Shown here: piece by piece, positions 2-7,994 of the stretch
Numbering within the stretch: position 1 is the stretch's first letter
Layout: every line of letters starts with the position of its first letter
From: a virus
Virus record (IMG/VR): IMGVR_UViG_3300034106_006471
Location: 1-64,000 of that record
DNA length: 64,000 nt
Strand: one strand, 5' to 3'
Position numbers and translations under genes: made by a program
The notes under the pieces: model-generated
What the model saw: only the letters and a program-made list of their open reading frames with translations
Database searches by the model: none
What the model was told of the DNA's origin: nothing

Positions 2-3000
2 AATCTTTATATTAATAATATTCCAGTAAGCGTTAGCGGACACGATCATTTATCAAGTAATATAACAGATTTCAATAGTAGCGTAAGTGGATTATTACCA
101 TCGATTACAGGAACAGGATATGTAAATACTTTATTCAATAATAGTACTTATTCTATTAGTGTTAGCGGATTACAACCAAGCGGAAACTATAGCGTTGAAG
201 GTCATACTCACGACAGATTAACTAATAATGATAAAGAAGTTGTGCTTAGTAGCAGCGGTTCTTTAACATTCCCAAGCGGAAGTATCCTAAGTGAAACAAA
301 TAATACACTATCCATAGCTCCTCCAACAGCAGCTTCTGGACAGAGCTTAGTTATTAGACCAACAGTAGCAACCTGGGGCTTAACTTCAAGCGGATATATA
401 GTATATGGTAGTCCAATTACTATTTCAGTTACTCTAAATAGCTGGGCTTATTTTGGAACAGTAAACTATACAATCTCTGGCTCTGGAGTTACTCCACAAT
501 CATTAGGTCGAGCATTAACTGGTAAATTAACTTTCGTAAGCACATCTGCTCCAGATACAGAAACTATTACTTGGACCATACCAGCTAATAGCAATATCTC
601 TGAATTTACTCTAACGCTAACAAGCGTTGATGGAACATTATCGACCGATCCACAGACCCAAAATGATCCAGAACTATATTACAATTTTGAATATAATGGT
701 ATGCCAACTGGTCAATTTATTACTGTGACTAATGATGGAATGTCTAATTCGGAGCATAGTCATGTTCATCTTGTGGCAGGGGATCCATCAATAGTTGACA
801 TTTATTTAGGTGATGACGACCAATATATCAAGATTGAAAAAAATGGTGGAGATGTGATTATTGGCACGGATTTAAATAATAATCAATGGGTCTTTGATAA
901 TACTGGTGGATTAACACTTCCCAATGGCACTAATATAGATGTCCCCTTTGGACAACCCCGCACCGGCGCCATAGCTATAACAAATTCCACAGAATTATTA
1001 ATTGAAACTAATAGTGATACCACTAACAACCTATGGACATTTGGCATAGACGGTAGCACAATACTTCCTGAGAATACTTTAAAAGGTTATTCTTTTACTG
1101 CTACTAATACTGTTACTAACTATATTCCGCAAGCAGCGCAGTTTTTATATACCGATAATCCAATACTAGGTTTAATATCAACAATAGGTGGAGTGTGGTA
1201 TATCAAAGGTCCGGGATTGGTGGGATGGAAACAGATAACCGCAGCACAGGACAATAGTGGAGTTGCTTTAATTTTAAGAATTGGTAGCGGGAATACTCCA
1301 TTGCCAGACGGTTCAGAATTTCCTTCGGGCGGTGGCAATGTTTATACCATAAGCCAATACCTTGAATTTGATCTCAAAGTTGCTGACAAGACTTGGATAT
1401 TTAAACAAGATGGTAATCTAACAATTCCAAGTGGAATAGTTTTTGTAGATAATACTATTCAAACAACCGCTTGGTCTGGAGCCGTATCAATAAATGAGAT
1501 TACTGATTTTGCTAGCGGAGTTAGTGGTTTGCTTCCAACCGTTAGTGGAACTGGTTATGCTGTAACGTCTTTTAATAATAATGTTTACACAGTTAGCGTA
1601 ACCGGTTTACAGCCTAGTGGCAACTATAGTTTAGATGGTCACAATCATATTATAGCAGATGTGAGTGGCTTACAAACCGCTTTGGACAACAAACAGCCTA
1701 GCGGAATATATGCCAGTGGAATTCATTCTCATGTTAGTAATGACATAACGGATTTTGCTATTTCTGTGAGCGGATTGTTGCCGGTTAAAAATATTCTGGC
1801 TGGTTATGATATTAATATTACTAATAATAACGGCGTTTATACCGTCGCTTCTACAAACTTAGTCCATGTTGATAGTCAACAGCCTCAAGGGTTTATCAAT
1901 AGAACTGATAGTAGAATTAGTGTTAGTGGTAATATTTTTACAATAGAACCCACAGGAAGCTCATATAGTTATTATAATAAAGGTATCAAAGTTGTTAAAA
2001 CTAGTGGTGATAGTTTAACTATACCAAATCTTACTCAAATTAATTATATTCATTTTGATACTATTAATAATCAAATATCAAATAAAACTACGGGTTTTGA
2101 TTTTTCTACTGATATTCCTATCGCATATATAGCTTGGAACAGTGGAGTTGGTCCTAGTGGACAAATGACTTTCTTTGCTGAAGAACGTCATGGTATTGTG
2201 ATGGACACTAGCACTCACAAGTGGATTCATACTACTTTTGGCGCACAATATGTTGGCGGTTTAAGTATTGGTAATTATGTTTTAGGTGGAGATGGGTCTA
2301 GTAATAGTCATGCAACTATATCAATTGGTAATGGTACTCTTTATCAAGAAGATATTGAAATAAATATTACTGATAGTTCTAGTACCGATCCGTTCTGTCA
2401 AGAGTTAAGCCCGATTGCTCAAATTCCCGTTTATTATCACCAAGGAACTACTGGTCAGTGGGTTAAGAATACTGCCACGGACTATCCTGTTAAATATGGT
2501 GCTAATGGACCACAATATAACTTATTAACTGGTAACAACTGGACAATTCCCGATGTTAGCCCCGGTGGACAAACAAGATATTTTGCGATGTGGATTCTTG
2601 CAACTAATCAGATTGATGATCCTATAATCAGCATTATGGGTCAGAGGATAGACAGCAATCAAGGATCGGCTGAGAACAATAATTCTTGGGGCGATATTAA
2701 TCTTACTAATTTGCCATTAAGTGAAGTTAAACCTCTTTATAGACTAATATTTGCTGGCGATAGCGATTATACAAATGTTCCTAAATGTAGGTTACTTAGT
2801 ATTCTTGATATACGAGTAGCCGTAATTAGCACTATTGCTGGAGTTACTCAAAATGATCACGGAAGTTTGTTCGGGTTAGGTGATGATGATCACTCTCAAT
2901 ATTTACATGTGGATAATAATCGAACAGTTAATGCAATTCATAATTTTATTAATGGATTAACTGTTAATGGTACTAGTGTAAGTGTAAGTGGTCATTCTCA

Positions 3001-3433
3001 TACATCTTCTGATATCACGGATTTTAACTCTAGTGTTAGTGGACTGTTGCCAGTAACAAATATAGTTGGCGGCTCTAATGTGTCTATTAGTTCATCAGGA
3101 TCAATTTATACAGTAGCAGTAACAGGCTCATTAGGACTAACTACAGAAGAGGTTGATGATAGAGTTAGTAGTTTATTAGTGGCCGGTACTGGTATAGCTT
3201 TATCTTATAATGATAATGCTAATACTTTGACAGTATCAACTACTAAAAATATAATATTATCTGATGTGGTTAGCGACACTAACTATATTGGAATAGCACC
3301 AGCCAACACCCTGGTAAGTGCGTCTTCATGGAAAATCAAAAGAACAATTTATAGCACTAGTGGTACGATTAGCAGTACTGGTGTTGCAAATAATGTTGCT
3401 TGGAATGATAGATTAACAGCTTCGTATTCATAA
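2..3433 (+). CDS. Tail/head fibre-like structural protein, 5' end outside window
   Basis: The frame is open from base 2, so the gene starts left of the window; the GTG at 242 is only an internal codon. About 1143 residues are visible. The protein is built of fibre modules: three copies of a motif with H-x-H, then D/E-ITDF and VSGLLP (near bases 40, 1490-1790 and 2990-3050), three W-x-F...G...LP-N/S modules (about 880, 1030, 1390), a DDDHSQYLHVD segment near 2880, and a TTEEVDDRVSSLLVAGTGI segment near 3140. These are known from phage fibre and virion-decoration proteins. The HxH motifs suggest metal ions inside a trimeric stalk (inference). Its place ahead of neck genes makes a head or neck fibre as likely as a tail fibre. 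Receptor and exact location are unknown. Confidence 0.75.
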   Translation, partial: NLYINNIPVSVSGHDHLSSNITDFNSSVSGLLPSITGTGYVNTLFNNSTYSISVSGLQPSGNYSVEGHTHDRLTNNDKEVVLSSSGSLTFPSGSILSETNNTLSIAPPTAASGQSLVIRPTVATWGLTSSGYIVYGSPITISVTLNSWAYFGTVNYTISGSGVTPQSLGRALTGKLTFVSTSAPDTETITWTIPANSNISEFTLTLTSVDGTLSTDPQTQNDPELYYNFEYNGMPTGQFITVTNDGMSNSEHSHVHLVAGDPSIVDIYLGDDDQYIKIEKNGGDVIIGTDLNNNQWVFDNTGGLTLPNGTNIDVPFGQPRTGAIAITNSTELLIETNSDTTNNLWTFGIDGSTILPENTLKGYSFTATNTVTNYIPQAAQFLYTDNPILGLISTIGGVWYIKGPGLVGWKQITAAQDNSGVALILRIGSGNTPLPDGSEFPSGGGNVYTISQYLEFDLKVADKTWIFKQDGNLTIPSGIVFVDNTIQTTAWSGAVSINEITDFASGVSGLLPTVSGTGYAVTSFNNNVYTVSVTGLQPSGNYSLDGHNHIIADVSGLQTALDNKQPSGIYASGIHSHVSNDITDFAISVSGLLPVKNILAGYDINITNNNGVYTVASTNLVHVDSQQPQGFINRTDSRISVSGNIFTIEPTGSSYSYYNKGIKVVKTSGDSLTIPNLTQINYIHFDTINNQISNKTTGFDFSTDIPIAYIAWNSGVGPSGQMTFFAEERHGIVMDTSTHKWIHTTFGAQYVGGLSIGNYVLGGDGSSNSHATISIGNGTLYQEDIEINITDSSSTDPFCQELSPIAQIPVYYHQGTTGQWVKNTATDYPVKYGANGPQYNLLTGNNWTIPDVSPGGQTRYFAMWILATNQIDDPIISIMGQRIDSNQGSAENNNSWGDINLTNLPLSEVKPLYRLIFAGDSDYTNVPKCRLLSILDIRVAVISTIAGVTQNDHGSLFGLGDDDHSQYLHVDNNRTVNAIHNFINGLTVNGTSVSVSGHSHTSSDITDFNSSVSGLLPVTNIVGGSNVSISSSGSIYTVAVTGSLGLTTEEVDDRVSSLLVAGTGIALSYNDNANTLTVSTTKNIILSDVVSDTNYIGIAPANTLVSASSWKIKRTIYSTSGTISSTGVANNVAWNDRLTASYS

Positions 3434-3443
3434 GGAGAATATA

Positions 3444-3731
3444 ATGAATAGTTCTAATCCAATTACTATTGATGATCAAGTATACGACAAATTAACAGTA
3501 AATCTTGCTGTTACTACTAGTTATAATGCCAGTGGTGACAGAGATATGAGCATAGCTATGAGAGTAATTCCTACTAGAATAGATCCTATTAGCGGTCCAC
3601 AAACTGCTGATAGTGCAGCATACACTGTATATAGAGGTAGATTAGCTGAACTACAAAACGAGTCAGAACAAAGTTGTGTTTTAGCTATGACACAGGCTCT
3701 ACAACAATTTATAAGTAGCAAGGGGTGGTAG
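3444..3731 (+). CDS. Small phage protein, full-length copy A of a duplicated cassette
   Basis: A 95-residue protein with a strong ribosome site (TAAGGAG) seven bases before the ATG. I do not recognise a family. The first 33 residues are Asn/Thr/Asp-rich; the rest (VIPTRIDPISGPQTADSAAY and following) is soluble, with a helical C-terminus ending SSKGW. The C-terminal 62 residues are repeated almost unchanged in the downstream 61-residue gene. The next gene begins one base after this stop, so the two are probably co-translated. It may be a partner or chaperone of the fibre-like protein that follows, because the pair was duplicated together; that is inference only. Confidence 0.7.
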   Translation: MNSSNPITIDDQVYDKLTVNLAVTTSYNASGDRDMSIAMRVIPTRIDPISGPQTADSAAYTVYRGRLAELQNESEQSCVLAMTQALQQFISSKGW

Positions 3732-3732
3732 T

Positions 3733-4890
3733 ATGGCTATTTATTATGCGCGCAAAGCTGGTAACGTGAATGCGACGGACGTGTGGGCAACCACGCAGGG
3801 CGGTACGGCGAGCGATCTGTTCCCGTCGTTCACGAGCGCAGACACACTGATGTCGAACAGTTTTACTGTTACCCTTAATGTGAACACTACTGTAGCCGAA
3901 GTGAGAAACGATAATACTGGAGGGGCTACCGCCGGTGGGAATTTTGCTTTGAGTAACGGTGTTATTCTGACAGCAAACGTGATTTGTGGAGCCAATGCTT
4001 CTTGTGTCACTTTTAGTTTGGCATCCCCAAATTCTGCATCTATTGTTGGAAATATATCGAATGCAGCTAATTCGCTACAATCGGCTGCTACCAACGGATC
4101 AAGTGGCACATTGAACATCACGGGGAACTGTACTGGAGGTCCCGCTAATTTAACTAATGGGGTATCCAATTCGAGTTCCGGAACAGTCAACATCACAGGA
4201 ATTTGTACCGGCGGGGCTAACAATGCTCATGGAGCTTATAATTCAAGTATTGGCACAATTAATATTGTTGGGTCTGCTGTTGGAGGTCCAGCTTCGAATT
4301 CTTTTGGAGCGCAAAATGCAAGTATAGGCACCATTAATATTATAGGAACTGCCACAGGTTCCTCCATAGCTATTGGAGCCAATAATAATAGCACAGGAAC
4401 TATGACAGTAACAAGAGCTAAAGGAAATGGATTTGGTAATGGTAGTGTGGGCTTATCTGCGGTTGTTGGAGTTAATGCGGCTCAAAATAGTGCGACTAGA
4501 GTTTACGAAATAGAATATGGTGACCTGGGTATGTCGCCAACTTCTGGGCCAATTATTTTATTAGATGATACTAGTAATGTTGCTTTATTTTATCGCACTT
4601 CTGGTGGCAAGAAAACACTAATAGATAGTTCGGCATCTGCTGGTCATCCAGCAATTACTAATGTGCGTAGCGGAATCTCGTATGCTAATGGCAACTTAAC
4701 AGGAACTTGTGCTGTTCCATCCGCTGGAAGCGTTGCTTTAGGAGTTGCTGTTGATAATACCACTGGCACAGCAATTTTAACACAAGCCGATGTTGAAACA
4801 GCTTTGGCTTCTTTTTCTTCTGGAAGATTAAGTAATTGTGCGACAGTGGCTAGTGTTGGTCAACAAATTATAATGCTGGCGGAGGCATGA
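3733..4890 (+). CDS. Beta-solenoid-like virion decoration/fibre protein, copy 1
   Basis: A 385-residue protein. The N-terminus (MAIYYARKAGNVNATDVWAT) is a conserved virion-protein leader. The middle has short repeats of the type G-T-hydrophobic-N-I-x-G-x-x-x-G-G, each about 18-23 residues, as expected of a right-handed beta-helix (family-level inference). The C-terminal part (from about residue 255) contains VYEIEYGD, SGPIILLDDTSN, VRSGISYANGNLTGTCAVP and ATVASVGQQ, a module I associate with environmental phage structural proteins. The gene ends in IIMLAEA, unlike copy 2, because the end was replaced at a recombination junction. Its stop overlaps the next ATG (ATGA). The first 110 bases are GC-rich (40 of 60 bases at 3781-3840), unlike the surrounding genes, which suggests acquisition from another phage. 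Confidence 0.7.
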   Translation: MAIYYARKAGNVNATDVWATTQGGTASDLFPSFTSADTLMSNSFTVTLNVNTTVAEVRNDNTGGATAGGNFALSNGVILTANVICGANASCVTFSLASPNSASIVGNISNAANSLQSAATNGSSGTLNITGNCTGGPANLTNGVSNSSSGTVNITGICTGGANNAHGAYNSSIGTINIVGSAVGGPASNSFGAQNASIGTINIIGTATGSSIAIGANNNSTGTMTVTRAKGNGFGNGSVGLSAVVGVNAAQNSATRVYEIEYGDLGMSPTSGPIILLDDTSNVALFYRTSGGKKTLIDSSASAGHPAITNVRSGISYANGNLTGTCAVPSAGSVALGVAVDNTTGTAILTQADVETALASFSSGRLSNCATVASVGQQIIMLAEA

Positions 4891-5072
4891 GCATGGCTAT
4901 GAAAGTTATTCCTACTAGAATAGATCCTATTAGCGGTCCACAAACTGCTGATAGTGCAGCATACGCCGTGTATAGAGGCAGATTATCTAAATTACGAAAC
5001 GATCCAGAACAAAATTGCGCATTGGCTATGACACAAGCTTTACAACAATTTATAAGTAGTAAGGAATGGTAA
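4887..5072 (+). CDS. N-terminally truncated copy A' of the small cassette protein
   Basis: A 61-residue protein closely matching residues 34-95 of the 95-residue gene upstream. In its own frame the bases before the ATG read NYNAGGG then MSMAM, matching SYNASGDRD-MSIAM of the full copy. The loss of the N-terminus is therefore a duplication breakpoint and not a wrong start. GGAGG four bases upstream of the ATG gives it a good ribosome site. The ATG overlaps the stop of copy 1 (ATGA). It may be functional in short form or be decaying; the reading frame is intact. Confidence 0.65.
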   Translation: MSMAMKVIPTRIDPISGPQTADSAAYAVYRGRLSKLRNDPEQNCALAMTQALQQFISSKEW

Positions 5073-5073
5073 T

Positions 5074-6243
5074 ATGGCGATTTATTATGCGCGCAAAGCT
5101 GGCAACGTGAATGCGACGGACGTGTGGGCGACAACGCCAAGCGGTACGGCGTCCAATTTGTTTTCATCATTCACTAGTGCGGATACGCTTTACGCTAACG
5201 GTTTCTCTGTTACGCTGAATGTAAACACCACGGTTCTTGACGTTCGCACCGACAATACAAACTCCGCAACGGCTGGTGGCGCCTTTACACTTAGCGATGG
5301 AGTAACGCTCACAGCTAACGTTGTCGCAGGATCAAACAACGGTTGCGTTGGGTATTCCGGGAATGGATTAAACTCTGCAACGATTGTTGGTTCTGTGACG
5401 GGTGGTACTGGAACGAGTGCCAGCGGTGCAGTTCTAATGAGCGGAACCGGAACATTGAACATTGTTGGAAATGTTACAGCAGGCTCGACTTCACAATCCT
5501 CCGGTGTGCAGTTTCAGTCAGGCAATGGAACAATAAACATTACTGGAAACGTAACTGGGGGTGGCTCAGGAAATGCATACGGAGTGTTTGTTAATCTCGG
5601 AACAGCACAGACGCTCAATATCACCGGCATCGTAACTGGAGGTTCTGCTGGCGTGGGAGTGCTTGCTAATGTGGCTTATACCTTAAACCTCACCGGCACG
5701 GCTGTTGGAGGTGTTGTCTCGGCCGGAATAAGCGTGACCGGATCTGCCACCGTCACGGCGACCCGTGCCAAGGGAAACGGATTTGGAAACGGATCATCAG
5801 GCTTGTCGGCGGCTGTTGGTATTTCCGTGACTGTACAGACCAGCAATACGAGAGTTTACGAAGTTGAATATGGAGATCGAGGACAGTCGCCAACATCTGG
5901 TCCTATTATTTTATTAAATGATACTAGCAATGTGGTGCTGTTCTACCGAACAAGCGGTGGCAAGAAAACACTAATAGACAGTTCGGCATCTGCTGGTCAT
6001 CCATCAATTACTAATGTTCGTAGTGGTATAGCATATGCTAATAATAATTTAACAGGAACTTGTGCTGTTCCAGCAGCCAGTAGTGTTACTGTTGGAGTTG
6101 CTGTTGATAATACCACTGGTACAGCAGTTTTAACACAAGCCGATGTTGAAACAGCCTTGGCTTCTTTTTCTTCTGGAAGATTAAGTAATTGTGCTACTGT
6201 TGCTACTGTTGGCCAACAGTTGTCAGACGCTTTGAGTGGATAA
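5074..6243 (+). CDS. Beta-solenoid-like virion decoration/fibre protein, copy 2
   Basis: A 389-residue paralogue of the 385-residue protein. It has the same leader (MAIYYARKAGNVNATDVWAT), the same repeat type (GTLNIVGNVTAG, GTINITGNVTGG), and a nearly identical C-terminal 130 residues ending VGQQLSDALSG, which appears to be the native end. The central repeats differ strongly from copy 1. DNA is GC-rich from about 5080 to 5880 (37 of 60 bases at 5101-5160) and then becomes AT-rich and close to copy 1, so the gene is a mosaic. Likely role: surface or fibre decoration of the virion. It is the last gene before a promoter and the neck genes. Confidence 0.7.
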   Translation: MAIYYARKAGNVNATDVWATTPSGTASNLFSSFTSADTLYANGFSVTLNVNTTVLDVRTDNTNSATAGGAFTLSDGVTLTANVVAGSNNGCVGYSGNGLNSATIVGSVTGGTGTSASGAVLMSGTGTLNIVGNVTAGSTSQSSGVQFQSGNGTINITGNVTGGGSGNAYGVFVNLGTAQTLNITGIVTGGSAGVGVLANVAYTLNLTGTAVGGVVSAGISVTGSATVTATRAKGNGFGNGSSGLSAAVGISVTVQTSNTRVYEVEYGDRGQSPTSGPIILLNDTSNVVLFYRTSGGKKTLIDSSASAGHPSITNVRSGIAYANNNLTGTCAVPAASSVTVGVAVDNTTGTAVLTQADVETALASFSSGRLSNCATVATVGQQLSDALSG

Positions 6244-6339: not shown

Positions 6340-6849
6340 ATGAGCTGGCAGATTGAAATACCTATTATAGTACGTACATTAATTAATGATTTATCAGATC
6401 AGCCAGTTTATAGCGATGATAGATTATTACAAGTTATAGCTGTTTCAGCTAAATATGTGCAATTTGATGTTAGTTTGGATACTAAATATATAGTAGATGT
6501 GGCCAATCCTAATATTAGTCCAGACCCTACCAATAGTAGAGATGAAATATTTATTAGTTTGGTTAGTTTGAAAGCTGCTTGTATTATTGATCAAAGTAGC
6601 CTACGAACTCAAGCAGCTATGGAAGGAGTAAGAGCATCACTAGGTCCAGCAAGTTTGTCTGTTAGTAATAGCTTACAAGGAGCTTTAGCTATTTTAGACA
6701 AAGGAGCGTGCGCAGCATATGACGAATTAACCAGTCATTGGGATGTAGCCCAAGCTACTACTGCCAAAGCTATACTCAGTCCATTTGTTGGTAATAAATT
6801 TGATCCACGAGCTATACGTAATTCTTATGGTAATAGAGATTTTTTTTAA
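6340..6849 (+). CDS. Probable head-tail connector (neck) protein
   Basis: A 169-residue, mostly helical, soluble protein with a ribosome site eight bases before its ATG. The N-terminus (VRTLINDLSDQPVYSDDRL) and the alanine-rich helices that follow resemble connector/adaptor proteins, which bind the portal ring, but there is no diagnostic motif. It is the first gene of a tight cluster running to the tail tube gene. That is where neck proteins are encoded in siphoviruses, and position is the main argument. An internal scaffold or decoration role remains possible. Confidence 0.45.
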   Translation: MSWQIEIPIIVRTLINDLSDQPVYSDDRLLQVIAVSAKYVQFDVSLDTKYIVDVANPNISPDPTNSRDEIFISLVSLKAACIIDQSSLRTQAAMEGVRASLGPASLSVSNSLQGALAILDKGACAAYDELTSHWDVAQATTAKAILSPFVGNKFDPRAIRNSYGNRDFF

Positions 6850-6863
6850 TAGGATAATACATT

Positions 6864-7994
6864 ATGTCATCTGCAATTCATAATTTTTTTATAGAACAAG
6901 GTAGTAGCTTTGAAATAATATTTGAATACTTGGACGAAAATGGATCTCCTATACCTATAGATCCTAATGATTGTGTTAGATTAAAATTAAAAACAAATAA
7001 CAATGAATACGCAGTATGGAGAAACGCAGGATTAACTGATGGTACTGGCTTACTAACATCTCAGAATGACTCATCTTTATCCAGTAATCAAATTAAATGG
7101 AAATTATCTTCTATAATAACAAAAACATATAATTTTGACACAGCATCATATGCTCTAGATATTATTGTTGGAGGATCTCCAGAAACTAACACCATTAAAT
7201 TAGCTACTGGTCAAATAGCATTAATAAAAGATATTTTTCTAACAGAGTGTTTAACTAACGAAGCTCTTAAAACTTGTAAAGATTGTACTGATGTTACAGC
7301 TTCAGATGCGTCTATAACTCCTGACCCTAATCTTACTCCGACTCCTAGTAGTACTTTAGGTTCTTTTATTACGCCTACTCCAACACCGTCTGTTGGATCT
7401 AGTATGCAAATACAGGATAACTTGTGTGATTATTTGTGTAGGGGTCTGGATATTTTTGCTCAACTATATACTGGATCAGGTATTAATATTTCTGATGCTA
7501 TTATGAATAATGGATCAGGAATAGCACAAAACTCAAATAATACTATTACAGTACTTAATACCGGAGTAGCAACTAATATCGAGTTATATATAGATAGTTT
7601 AACTCATGAAAATCCCAGCGATTTAACTTTATTCTTAACTCCACCTACAGGAACACCTATATTATTATCTCATAGGAATAAAATTAATAATTATAGTCCT
7701 ATTAGCGGAGTTAGTTTTTCATTTTCTAACAAAGCATTGCCTGGTACATATTTATATAACAAAAGTAATAGTAATGATTTACACGTTAATATTCTAAAAA
7801 ATAGCGGAGTCACACCACCTTCCCCATATAATAGTACATATGCATATAATTTTGATCATTTATTTAACAGTAGCGTGAGTGGTAATTGGACCCTTAATGT
7901 GCTTGATAATGATCCGGGAGCAACGGGCTATATCAAAGGATGGAATCTTGTTATAACGTATTTACCACCAGAAACATATATTGAAAATACATAA
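6864..7994 (+). CDS. Virion protein with baseplate-upper-like N-domain and P-domain
   Basis: A 376-residue protein. Residues 1-130 (FFIEQGSSFEIIFEYLDENG...) match the beta-sandwich pattern at the start of many phage baseplate or appendage proteins, beginning with EQG-x-F. A Thr/Pro-rich linker (about 150-175) follows. Residues about 210-370 look like a proprotein-convertase P-domain: a start with short N/S-rich strands, then DLTLFLTPPTGTPILLSHR, and finally SGNWTLNVLDNDPGATGYIK and GWNLVI, the family's closing signature. P-domains fold as jelly-roll sandwiches and often bind calcium or aid adhesion. No protease domain is present, so here it is probably a binding or stabilising module on the neck or tail. 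Confidence 0.65.
   Translation: MSSAIHNFFIEQGSSFEIIFEYLDENGSPIPIDPNDCVRLKLKTNNNEYAVWRNAGLTDGTGLLTSQNDSSLSSNQIKWKLSSIITKTYNFDTASYALDIIVGGSPETNTIKLATGQIALIKDIFLTECLTNEALKTCKDCTDVTASDASITPDPNLTPTPSSTLGSFITPTPTPSVGSSMQIQDNLCDYLCRGLDIFAQLYTGSGINISDAIMNNGSGIAQNSNNTITVLNTGVATNIELYIDSLTHENPSDLTLFLTPPTGTPILLSHRNKINNYSPISGVSFSFSNKALPGTYLYNKSNSNDLHVNILKNSGVTPPSPYNSTYAYNFDHLFNSSVSGNWTLNVLDNDPGATGYIKGWNLVITYLPPETYIENT

Follow-up and report, generated by a model that had tools for sequence, protein, structure and literature searches.

Small-domain duplications in the tail-fibre adhesin of phage T4 were reportedly connected with an expansion of host range, as the title of a 1996 study by Tetart has it. At the locus described here, a putative adhesin region is likewise duplicated, although the unit in T4 was a small domain within a protein and here it is a pair of genes. 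For the dmd-tifA locus of phage T4, a tandem amplification driven by microhomology has been reported (PMC9391042), and for phage EfV12-phi1, duplications in tandem have been described within its tail-fibre gene (PMC6365445). The tailspike gene clusters of the Ackermannviridae are described as containing several tailspike genes, the domains of which are exchanged by recombination (PMC11414711).

The DNA analyzed here, referred to as the window, comprises the first 64,000 nucleotides of an 88,924-base viral record (IMG/VR IMGVR_UViG_3300034106_006471). A small gene, A, and a larger gene, B, are each present twice, in the order A1-B1-a2-B2 and as four tightly packed frames over positions 3444-6243 (Table 1). 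As reported for T4 dmd-tifA, the duplication is head to tail with one short common sequence between the repeats; that sequence is typically 6-10 bp in T4 and probably about 4 bp in the window, and the T4 copies are described as fresh, numerous, made in the laboratory and carrying an anti-toxin gene, whereas those in the window are old, two in number, diverged and located beside a tail-fibre-like gene (PMC9391042). As in the account of EfV12-phi1, a host-recognition region of a phage is affected, here a putative one, but the duplications described there are in-frame inside one gene and under coevolution, while whole genes were duplicated in the window and the join lies between genes (PMC6365445). 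The likeness to the Ackermannviridae clusters, by their description, is that several genes swap domains (PMC11414711); A and B themselves match no Pfam, PHROG or PDB sequence. The type of event is known from the T4 amplification and the EfV12-phi1 duplications, and is an ordinary kind of genome change that is well documented at this locus. The unusual feature is that the joint is legible to within a few bases.

Table 1. Features of the duplicated locus and its neighbours (window positions).
Feature	Position	Strand	Remarks
Tail-fibre-like gene, upstream of cassette	242..3433	+	5' part beyond window; 1366-aa ORF in L003
A1, complete copy of A, 95 aa	3444..3731	+	AGGAG 6 nt upstream of ATG; A family alignment
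TTATAATGC inside A1 (SYNA codons)	3521..3529	+	
B1, predicted beta-helix protein, 385 aa	3733..4890	+	Final 7 residues, IIMLAEA, from A-derived DNA in a different frame
Portion of B1 unlike B1 of L003, swapped module	3733..4430	+	Identity in 90-column blocks
ACAA, putative microhomology where B-derived and A-derived DNA meet	4863..4866	+	From L006 B end GGCCAACAACTG and L006 A ACTACAAATTATA
TTATAATGC, A-derived flank to the right of the join	4868..4876	+	
GGAGG, SD-like	4881..4885	+	1 nt from ATG 4887, 7 nt from ATG 4893
a2, second A copy, lacking the first 34 residues of A	4887..5072	+	61 aa, or 59 if the start is 4893; ATGA overlap with B1 stop
B2, complete B, 389 aa	5074..6243	+	Ends in GQQLSDALSG, also found in L006
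Gene after B2	6340..6849	+	Homologue comes after the single B in L006

Alignment of one copy to the other bore out the cassette duplication proposed in the initial annotation: the A1 and a2 copies at the A/B border (3533-3832 against 4874-5173) align at 85%, and the B1 and B2 copies near the end of B (4495-4794 against 5848-6147) at 83%, over 300 bases each. The bases before ATG 4887, said in that annotation to read like the intact copy, do so when translated in the a2 frame (TNYNAGGG-MSMAM against TTSYNASGDRD-MSIAM in A1). The N terminus of a2 is indeed shortened and the C terminus of B1 indeed replaced, as B1 tracks B2 to GQQ and then diverges (GQQ-IIMLAEA in B1, GQQ-LSDALSG in B2).

The nine bases TTATAATGC occur only at their two tabulated positions in the whole window, both strands included, but the count expected from base composition is 0.78 per strand, and thus the 9-mer by itself proves little. 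An anchored test was based on the 30 bases before 4887, which were aligned, end-anchored, to the stretches upstream in A1 and in the A gene of a relative termed L006, with random 30-mers drawn from window positions 5400-64000. The score against A1 and L006 jointly was equalled or exceeded by 23 of 50,000 random 30-mers, while 111 of the same 50,000 reached the score against A1 alone and 71 that against L006 alone. In a first version of the test, against A1 alone, the score was reached by 75 of 20,000 random 30-mers, and of 1170 ATGs no fewer than three unrelated ones (10944, 6455 and 30782) scored equally well against A1, so that evidence for the join from within the window is moderate.

The strongest confirmation of the scar is the identical join in a second phage. 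L003, a contig of 34,557 bases whose second B runs off the contig end, is identical to the window across 4843-4911. The end of B1 nevertheless differs between the two at 27 of 405 sites and a2 at 20 of 183, and the window and L003 are therefore not copies of one sequence. It could be argued, from the expected frequency of the 9-mer and from the unrelated ATGs that are equally similar upstream, that the resemblance at 4868 is due to chance or that the join is an artefact of metagenome assembly. However, the joint similarity to A1 and L006 was so rarely reached by random 30-mers, and L003 is a separate contig that carries the same join between its own diverged copies; such an explanation is extremely improbable, and the tandem duplication scar is a real observation.

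Relatives were collected in three family searches, in which 80 of 308, 30 of 30 and 80 of 221 confirmed relatives were kept, and overlapping records were merged into 117 contig groups with flanks of 4-5 kb where the contig allowed. The initial annotation had suggested searching relatives for a single-copy ancestor and for the same junction; a single-copy relative was found in L006 and the junction in L003. In L006 a single A-B pair lies at the same place (fibre end-A-B-6340 homologue, against fibre-A1-B1-a2-B2-6340 gene in the window), and B is present once in the whole 51,807-base record, compared with twice in the record of the window and twice in that of L003. Since the homologue of the 6340 gene follows the single B of L006, B2 retains the ancestral downstream neighbour. 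The two copies in the window are in direct orientation, the outer flanks match those of the single-copy L006, and the novel joint links two non-homologous points and is common by descent to the window and L003.

A single A-B pair was present in 109 of the 117 groups, 106 of them printed in that order and three printed as B-A because the open frame of B begins before A. The remainder consisted of three A-B-B groups, two A-B-a-B groups, one with a shortened A before B (L224), one inverted repeat (L141) and one B at a contig edge (L159). Among these groups, the arrangement A-B-a-B was confined to the window and L003. Two intact A genes in tandem were seen in none of the 117 groups, within the stretches and flanks available, and nor was a relative with an intact second small gene and no junction. 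A degenerate pattern of the joint at the codon level matched two viral contigs, that of L003 and L225, the latter without A or B; an earlier, looser junction pattern matched 101 viral stretches, all of which were tested, and only the contig of L003 carries A or B. Two pattern scans of bacterial genomes (45 and 85 matches) gave no confirmed relative, and no named phage matched B2 or A1. A fibre end was found within 500 bases upstream of A in 48 of 85 contig groups by phmmer (20 of 85 in a stricter motif search), and is thus a common context, shown for those 48 groups. The Pfam PTR match of the tail-fibre-like gene in the window is weak and under the cut-off of that family.

Other arrangements were also noted in the survey. 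In L203 (5322-7773) and L126 (5001-7512) there is a separate doubling of B alone (A-B-B), with the second B starting 1 nt after the stop of the first and no A between; the joints have nearly the same sequence, and the two were counted as one event. L168 was rejected as a further recent duplication of B, its second copy being a diverged gene with a different N terminus. The single-copy A of L224 (4995-5222, on a contig shared with L008) lacks about 16 N-terminal residues at an unduplicated locus, and in L141 (1-7462) the pair is present as an inverted repeat (B-A ... A-B) that may be a palindrome created by assembly.

The A-B pair is widespread and is matched by no family library searched: at E 0.01, searches of Pfam and PHROGs with 38 B and 58 A sequences gave no match, and PDB sequences were matched by neither the A nor the B profile at E 0.1. 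No description of the pair was found in the literature, which is not searchable by sequence. The structural model of B, which has a mean pLDDT of 83 and is less certain towards the C terminus, is a beta-helix in which short strands repeat every ~25 residues, and the DNA contains repeats of 72-75 nt. The matches of this fold in the PDB were beta-helix proteins, the best being the TSP3 tailspike of phage CBA120 at E 0.019 and none being under E 0.001, so that by sequence (Pfam, PHROG, PDB) or by fold B has no significant match to a known tailspike. The best match among viral models (BFVD) was A0A6J5NS31, an uncharacterised protein (E 9.5e-8). The fold search with A gave no significant match. Taken with its place and mosaic history, the fold suggests that B is a receptor-binding or tailspike-like protein.

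One interpretation of these data, which we consider highly probable, is that the common ancestor of the window phage and the L003 phage had a single A-B pair, flanked by the tail-fibre-like gene and the 6340 gene, and that this pair was duplicated head to tail, by an illegitimate join that was followed by gene conversion and module swaps. One DNA end would have been ~24 bases before the end of B and the other inside A, ~26-30 bases before the MSIAM codons, and the ends would have been joined by illegitimate recombination, probably aided by about four shared bases (ACAA). With L006 as the guide to the parental ends, the end of B is GGCCAACAACTG and A is ACTACAAATTATA, while the join reads GGTCAACAAATTATAATGC; comparison of the three places the likeliest edge at the common ACAA. 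The microhomology between the parental ends would then be ~4 bp at most, an estimate in which L006 stands in for the ancestor and from which the window's own A1 and B2 bases differ. The initial annotation had described an unequal recombination marked by TTATAATGC. The tandem junction, from the 3' end of B to the inside of A, stands, but the points joined are non-homologous; the 9-mer is present at both positions, but is A-derived flank, with the edge a few bases to its left. As a recombining repeat it was rejected, being present only in the two A copies and absent from the end of B2.

After joining, the B reading frame would have run into A out of frame and halted at the TGA within A's own ATGAGC, and in-frame Met codons of A could have initiated the shortened a2. 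A contains ATATGAGC, the +1-frame TGA of which terminates B1. Because ATATGAGC was already in A, a frame entering in this phase stops at that TGA and the ATGA overlap needs no later mutation; the overlap had been read as a product of the event, but the TGA was ready-made. An ATGA-type overlap of 4 bases is also found in three of the 13 other neighbouring gene pairs listed. The ribosome site that was also credited to the event is better placed for ATG 4893 than for ATG 4887, and the spacing of GGAGG (Table 1) makes 4893 the likelier start of a2. At a later stage, the ends of the copies may have been partly homogenised by gene conversion and the beta-helix parts of B1 and B2 replaced by different modules. 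Selection may have kept the doubling of B, with its putative role in receptor binding or as a tailspike, and a2 is probably a decaying by-product that is perhaps still translated.

Trees and divergence estimates were used to place the event. In a combined tree of the A core and the C-terminal part of B, copy 1 and copy 2 grouped together with L006 outside (98/99), with AU p values of 0.021 and 0.022 for the two alternative topologies, and a DNA tree of the B ends alone joined B2 to the B1 pair (90/94). The A core tree alone left A1, the A of L006 and the a2 pair without a resolved order, and the protein tree of B ends did not separate the order among B2, L117 (= L006), L118 and the B1 pair. 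The dS between the window and L003 was 0.26 both at the B1 end and in a2, compared with 0.65 between B1 and B2 and 0.86 between B1 and L006, an order that fits duplication before the window and L003 split. Note, however, that dS between the A1 genes of the window and L003 was only 0.05, out of line with 0.26, and a later exchange of the upstream part would be needed to account for it.

Within A, the two copies are united by 19 sites, copy 1 and L006 by 18, and copy 2 and L006 by four; the corresponding numbers in B are 39, 41 and 24, and for sites polarised with L007 they are 4, 4 and 1 in A and 17, 12 and 8 in B. The copy-joining sites are clustered, with 14 of 19 in the first 80 bases of the A core and 16 of 39 in the last 125 columns of the B end, as partial gene conversion would give. 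B is a mosaic gene in its N-terminal and middle parts, as seen from block identities, shifts in G+C and different nearest relatives: in blocks of 90 columns, the B1 genes of the window and L003 share 47-67% identity to ~4430 and at least 90% beyond; G+C falls from 50% over the initial 267 bases of B1 to 43% in the middle of that gene, is 51-52% across about 800 bases at the start of B2 and is 41% in both B ends, against 32.5% for the window; and the N-terminal domain of B2 is nearest to L224 (87%), while its C-terminal part is nearest to L117 (85%). Upstream of the cassette, positions 900-1393 of the fibre-like gene were not aligned to L003 by blastn, although the stretches on either side are 92% and 96% identical to it; this segment is perhaps a swapped fibre module.

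It could be that a2-B2, or the first B1, was instead imported from a related phage by illegitimate recombination, the tandem then being the insertion of a homologous cassette. The patchy site patterns, split between groupings, would allow one half to have come from a related phage, and the two nearest relatives of B2 and the difference between the B1 genes of the window and L003 across their first ~60% point the same way. Against this, the combined tree unites the copies with its alternatives at AU p 0.02, the DNA tree of B ends places B2 with the B1 pair, A1 and a2 share 57 consecutive identical bases, and later module swaps account for the mosaic equally well. Import is accordingly quite improbable, and ancestral duplication of a single A-B pair with later swaps is the preferred reading.

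The state of a2 was assessed from its divergence. The window and L003 differ by 12 nonsynonymous and 8 synonymous changes in a2 (dN/dS 0.33) and by 4 and 23 at the B1 end (dN/dS 0.05), with the same dS (Fisher p 0.0019); the contrast was not significant against A1-L006 (7 and 17; p 0.066) or A1-L003 A1 (0 and 2; p 0.19). The strands predicted at residues 2-9 and 12-27 in the model of A (mean pLDDT 90) are both missing from a2, and both a2 copies carry E in place of G94, a residue conserved in at least 90% of the 58 A sequences in the alignment. After 20 simulated random substitutions the a2 frame was still open in 40% of draws. Together, these comparisons suggest that a2 is relaxed and weakly constrained at most. 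The claim that both genes stayed translatable holds in that the frames are open, but translatable does not mean functional.

A functional a2, maintained by selection as an additional A protein of a novel, short form, would be consistent with the frame being open in both phages, with the SD-like site 7 nt upstream of ATG 4893, with nonsynonymous changes being slightly fewer than under neutrality (12 of 20, p 0.03) and with the late-starting A gene in L224. The lost strands, the change at G94, the high dN at equal dS and the survival of an open frame in simulation all speak against it, and we regard such a protein as doubtful. The ATG of B lies 0-3 nt past the stop of A in 86 of 86 A genes (85 contig groups), and translation of a2 could thus still feed B2, although the A-B-B order of L203 and L126 indicates that the second B need not be preceded by an A frame. 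At the a2 start and at four B starts, no RNA structure that would hide the start was detected (z-scores from 0.06 to 1.10). A broader proposal is that A-B is an undescribed, widespread phage pair whose locus repeatedly doubles B beside a single working A (A-B-B; A-B-a-B), and that a2 was kept as a translated bridge rather than as a protein, carrying ribosomes from the B1 stop to the B2 start, with coupling across the four frames through intervals of 1, -4 and 1 nt; this is speculative and rather unlikely.

The locus preserves an old phage duplication joint that can be read to a few bases, has been confirmed by a second phage and can be compared with a single-copy relative. A Met codon inside A and an out-of-frame stop already in place would have let a crude join leave every gene readable. 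The locus also draws attention to a widespread gene pair for which the libraries searched gave no match. In more than one lineage, the predicted beta-helix partner of this pair has been duplicated and rearranged.

Two further observations concern other parts of the window. A structural-region protein (6864-7994) has a Proprotein convertase P-domain at its end (Pfam PF01483, E 8.9e-10). Between 27349 and 40566, three large genes (27349, 33740 and 36820) contain FGE-sulfatase (SUMF1-like) domains; in genes 33740 and 36820 the best stretch corresponds to the C-terminal half of the profile, and a second stretch was not placed.
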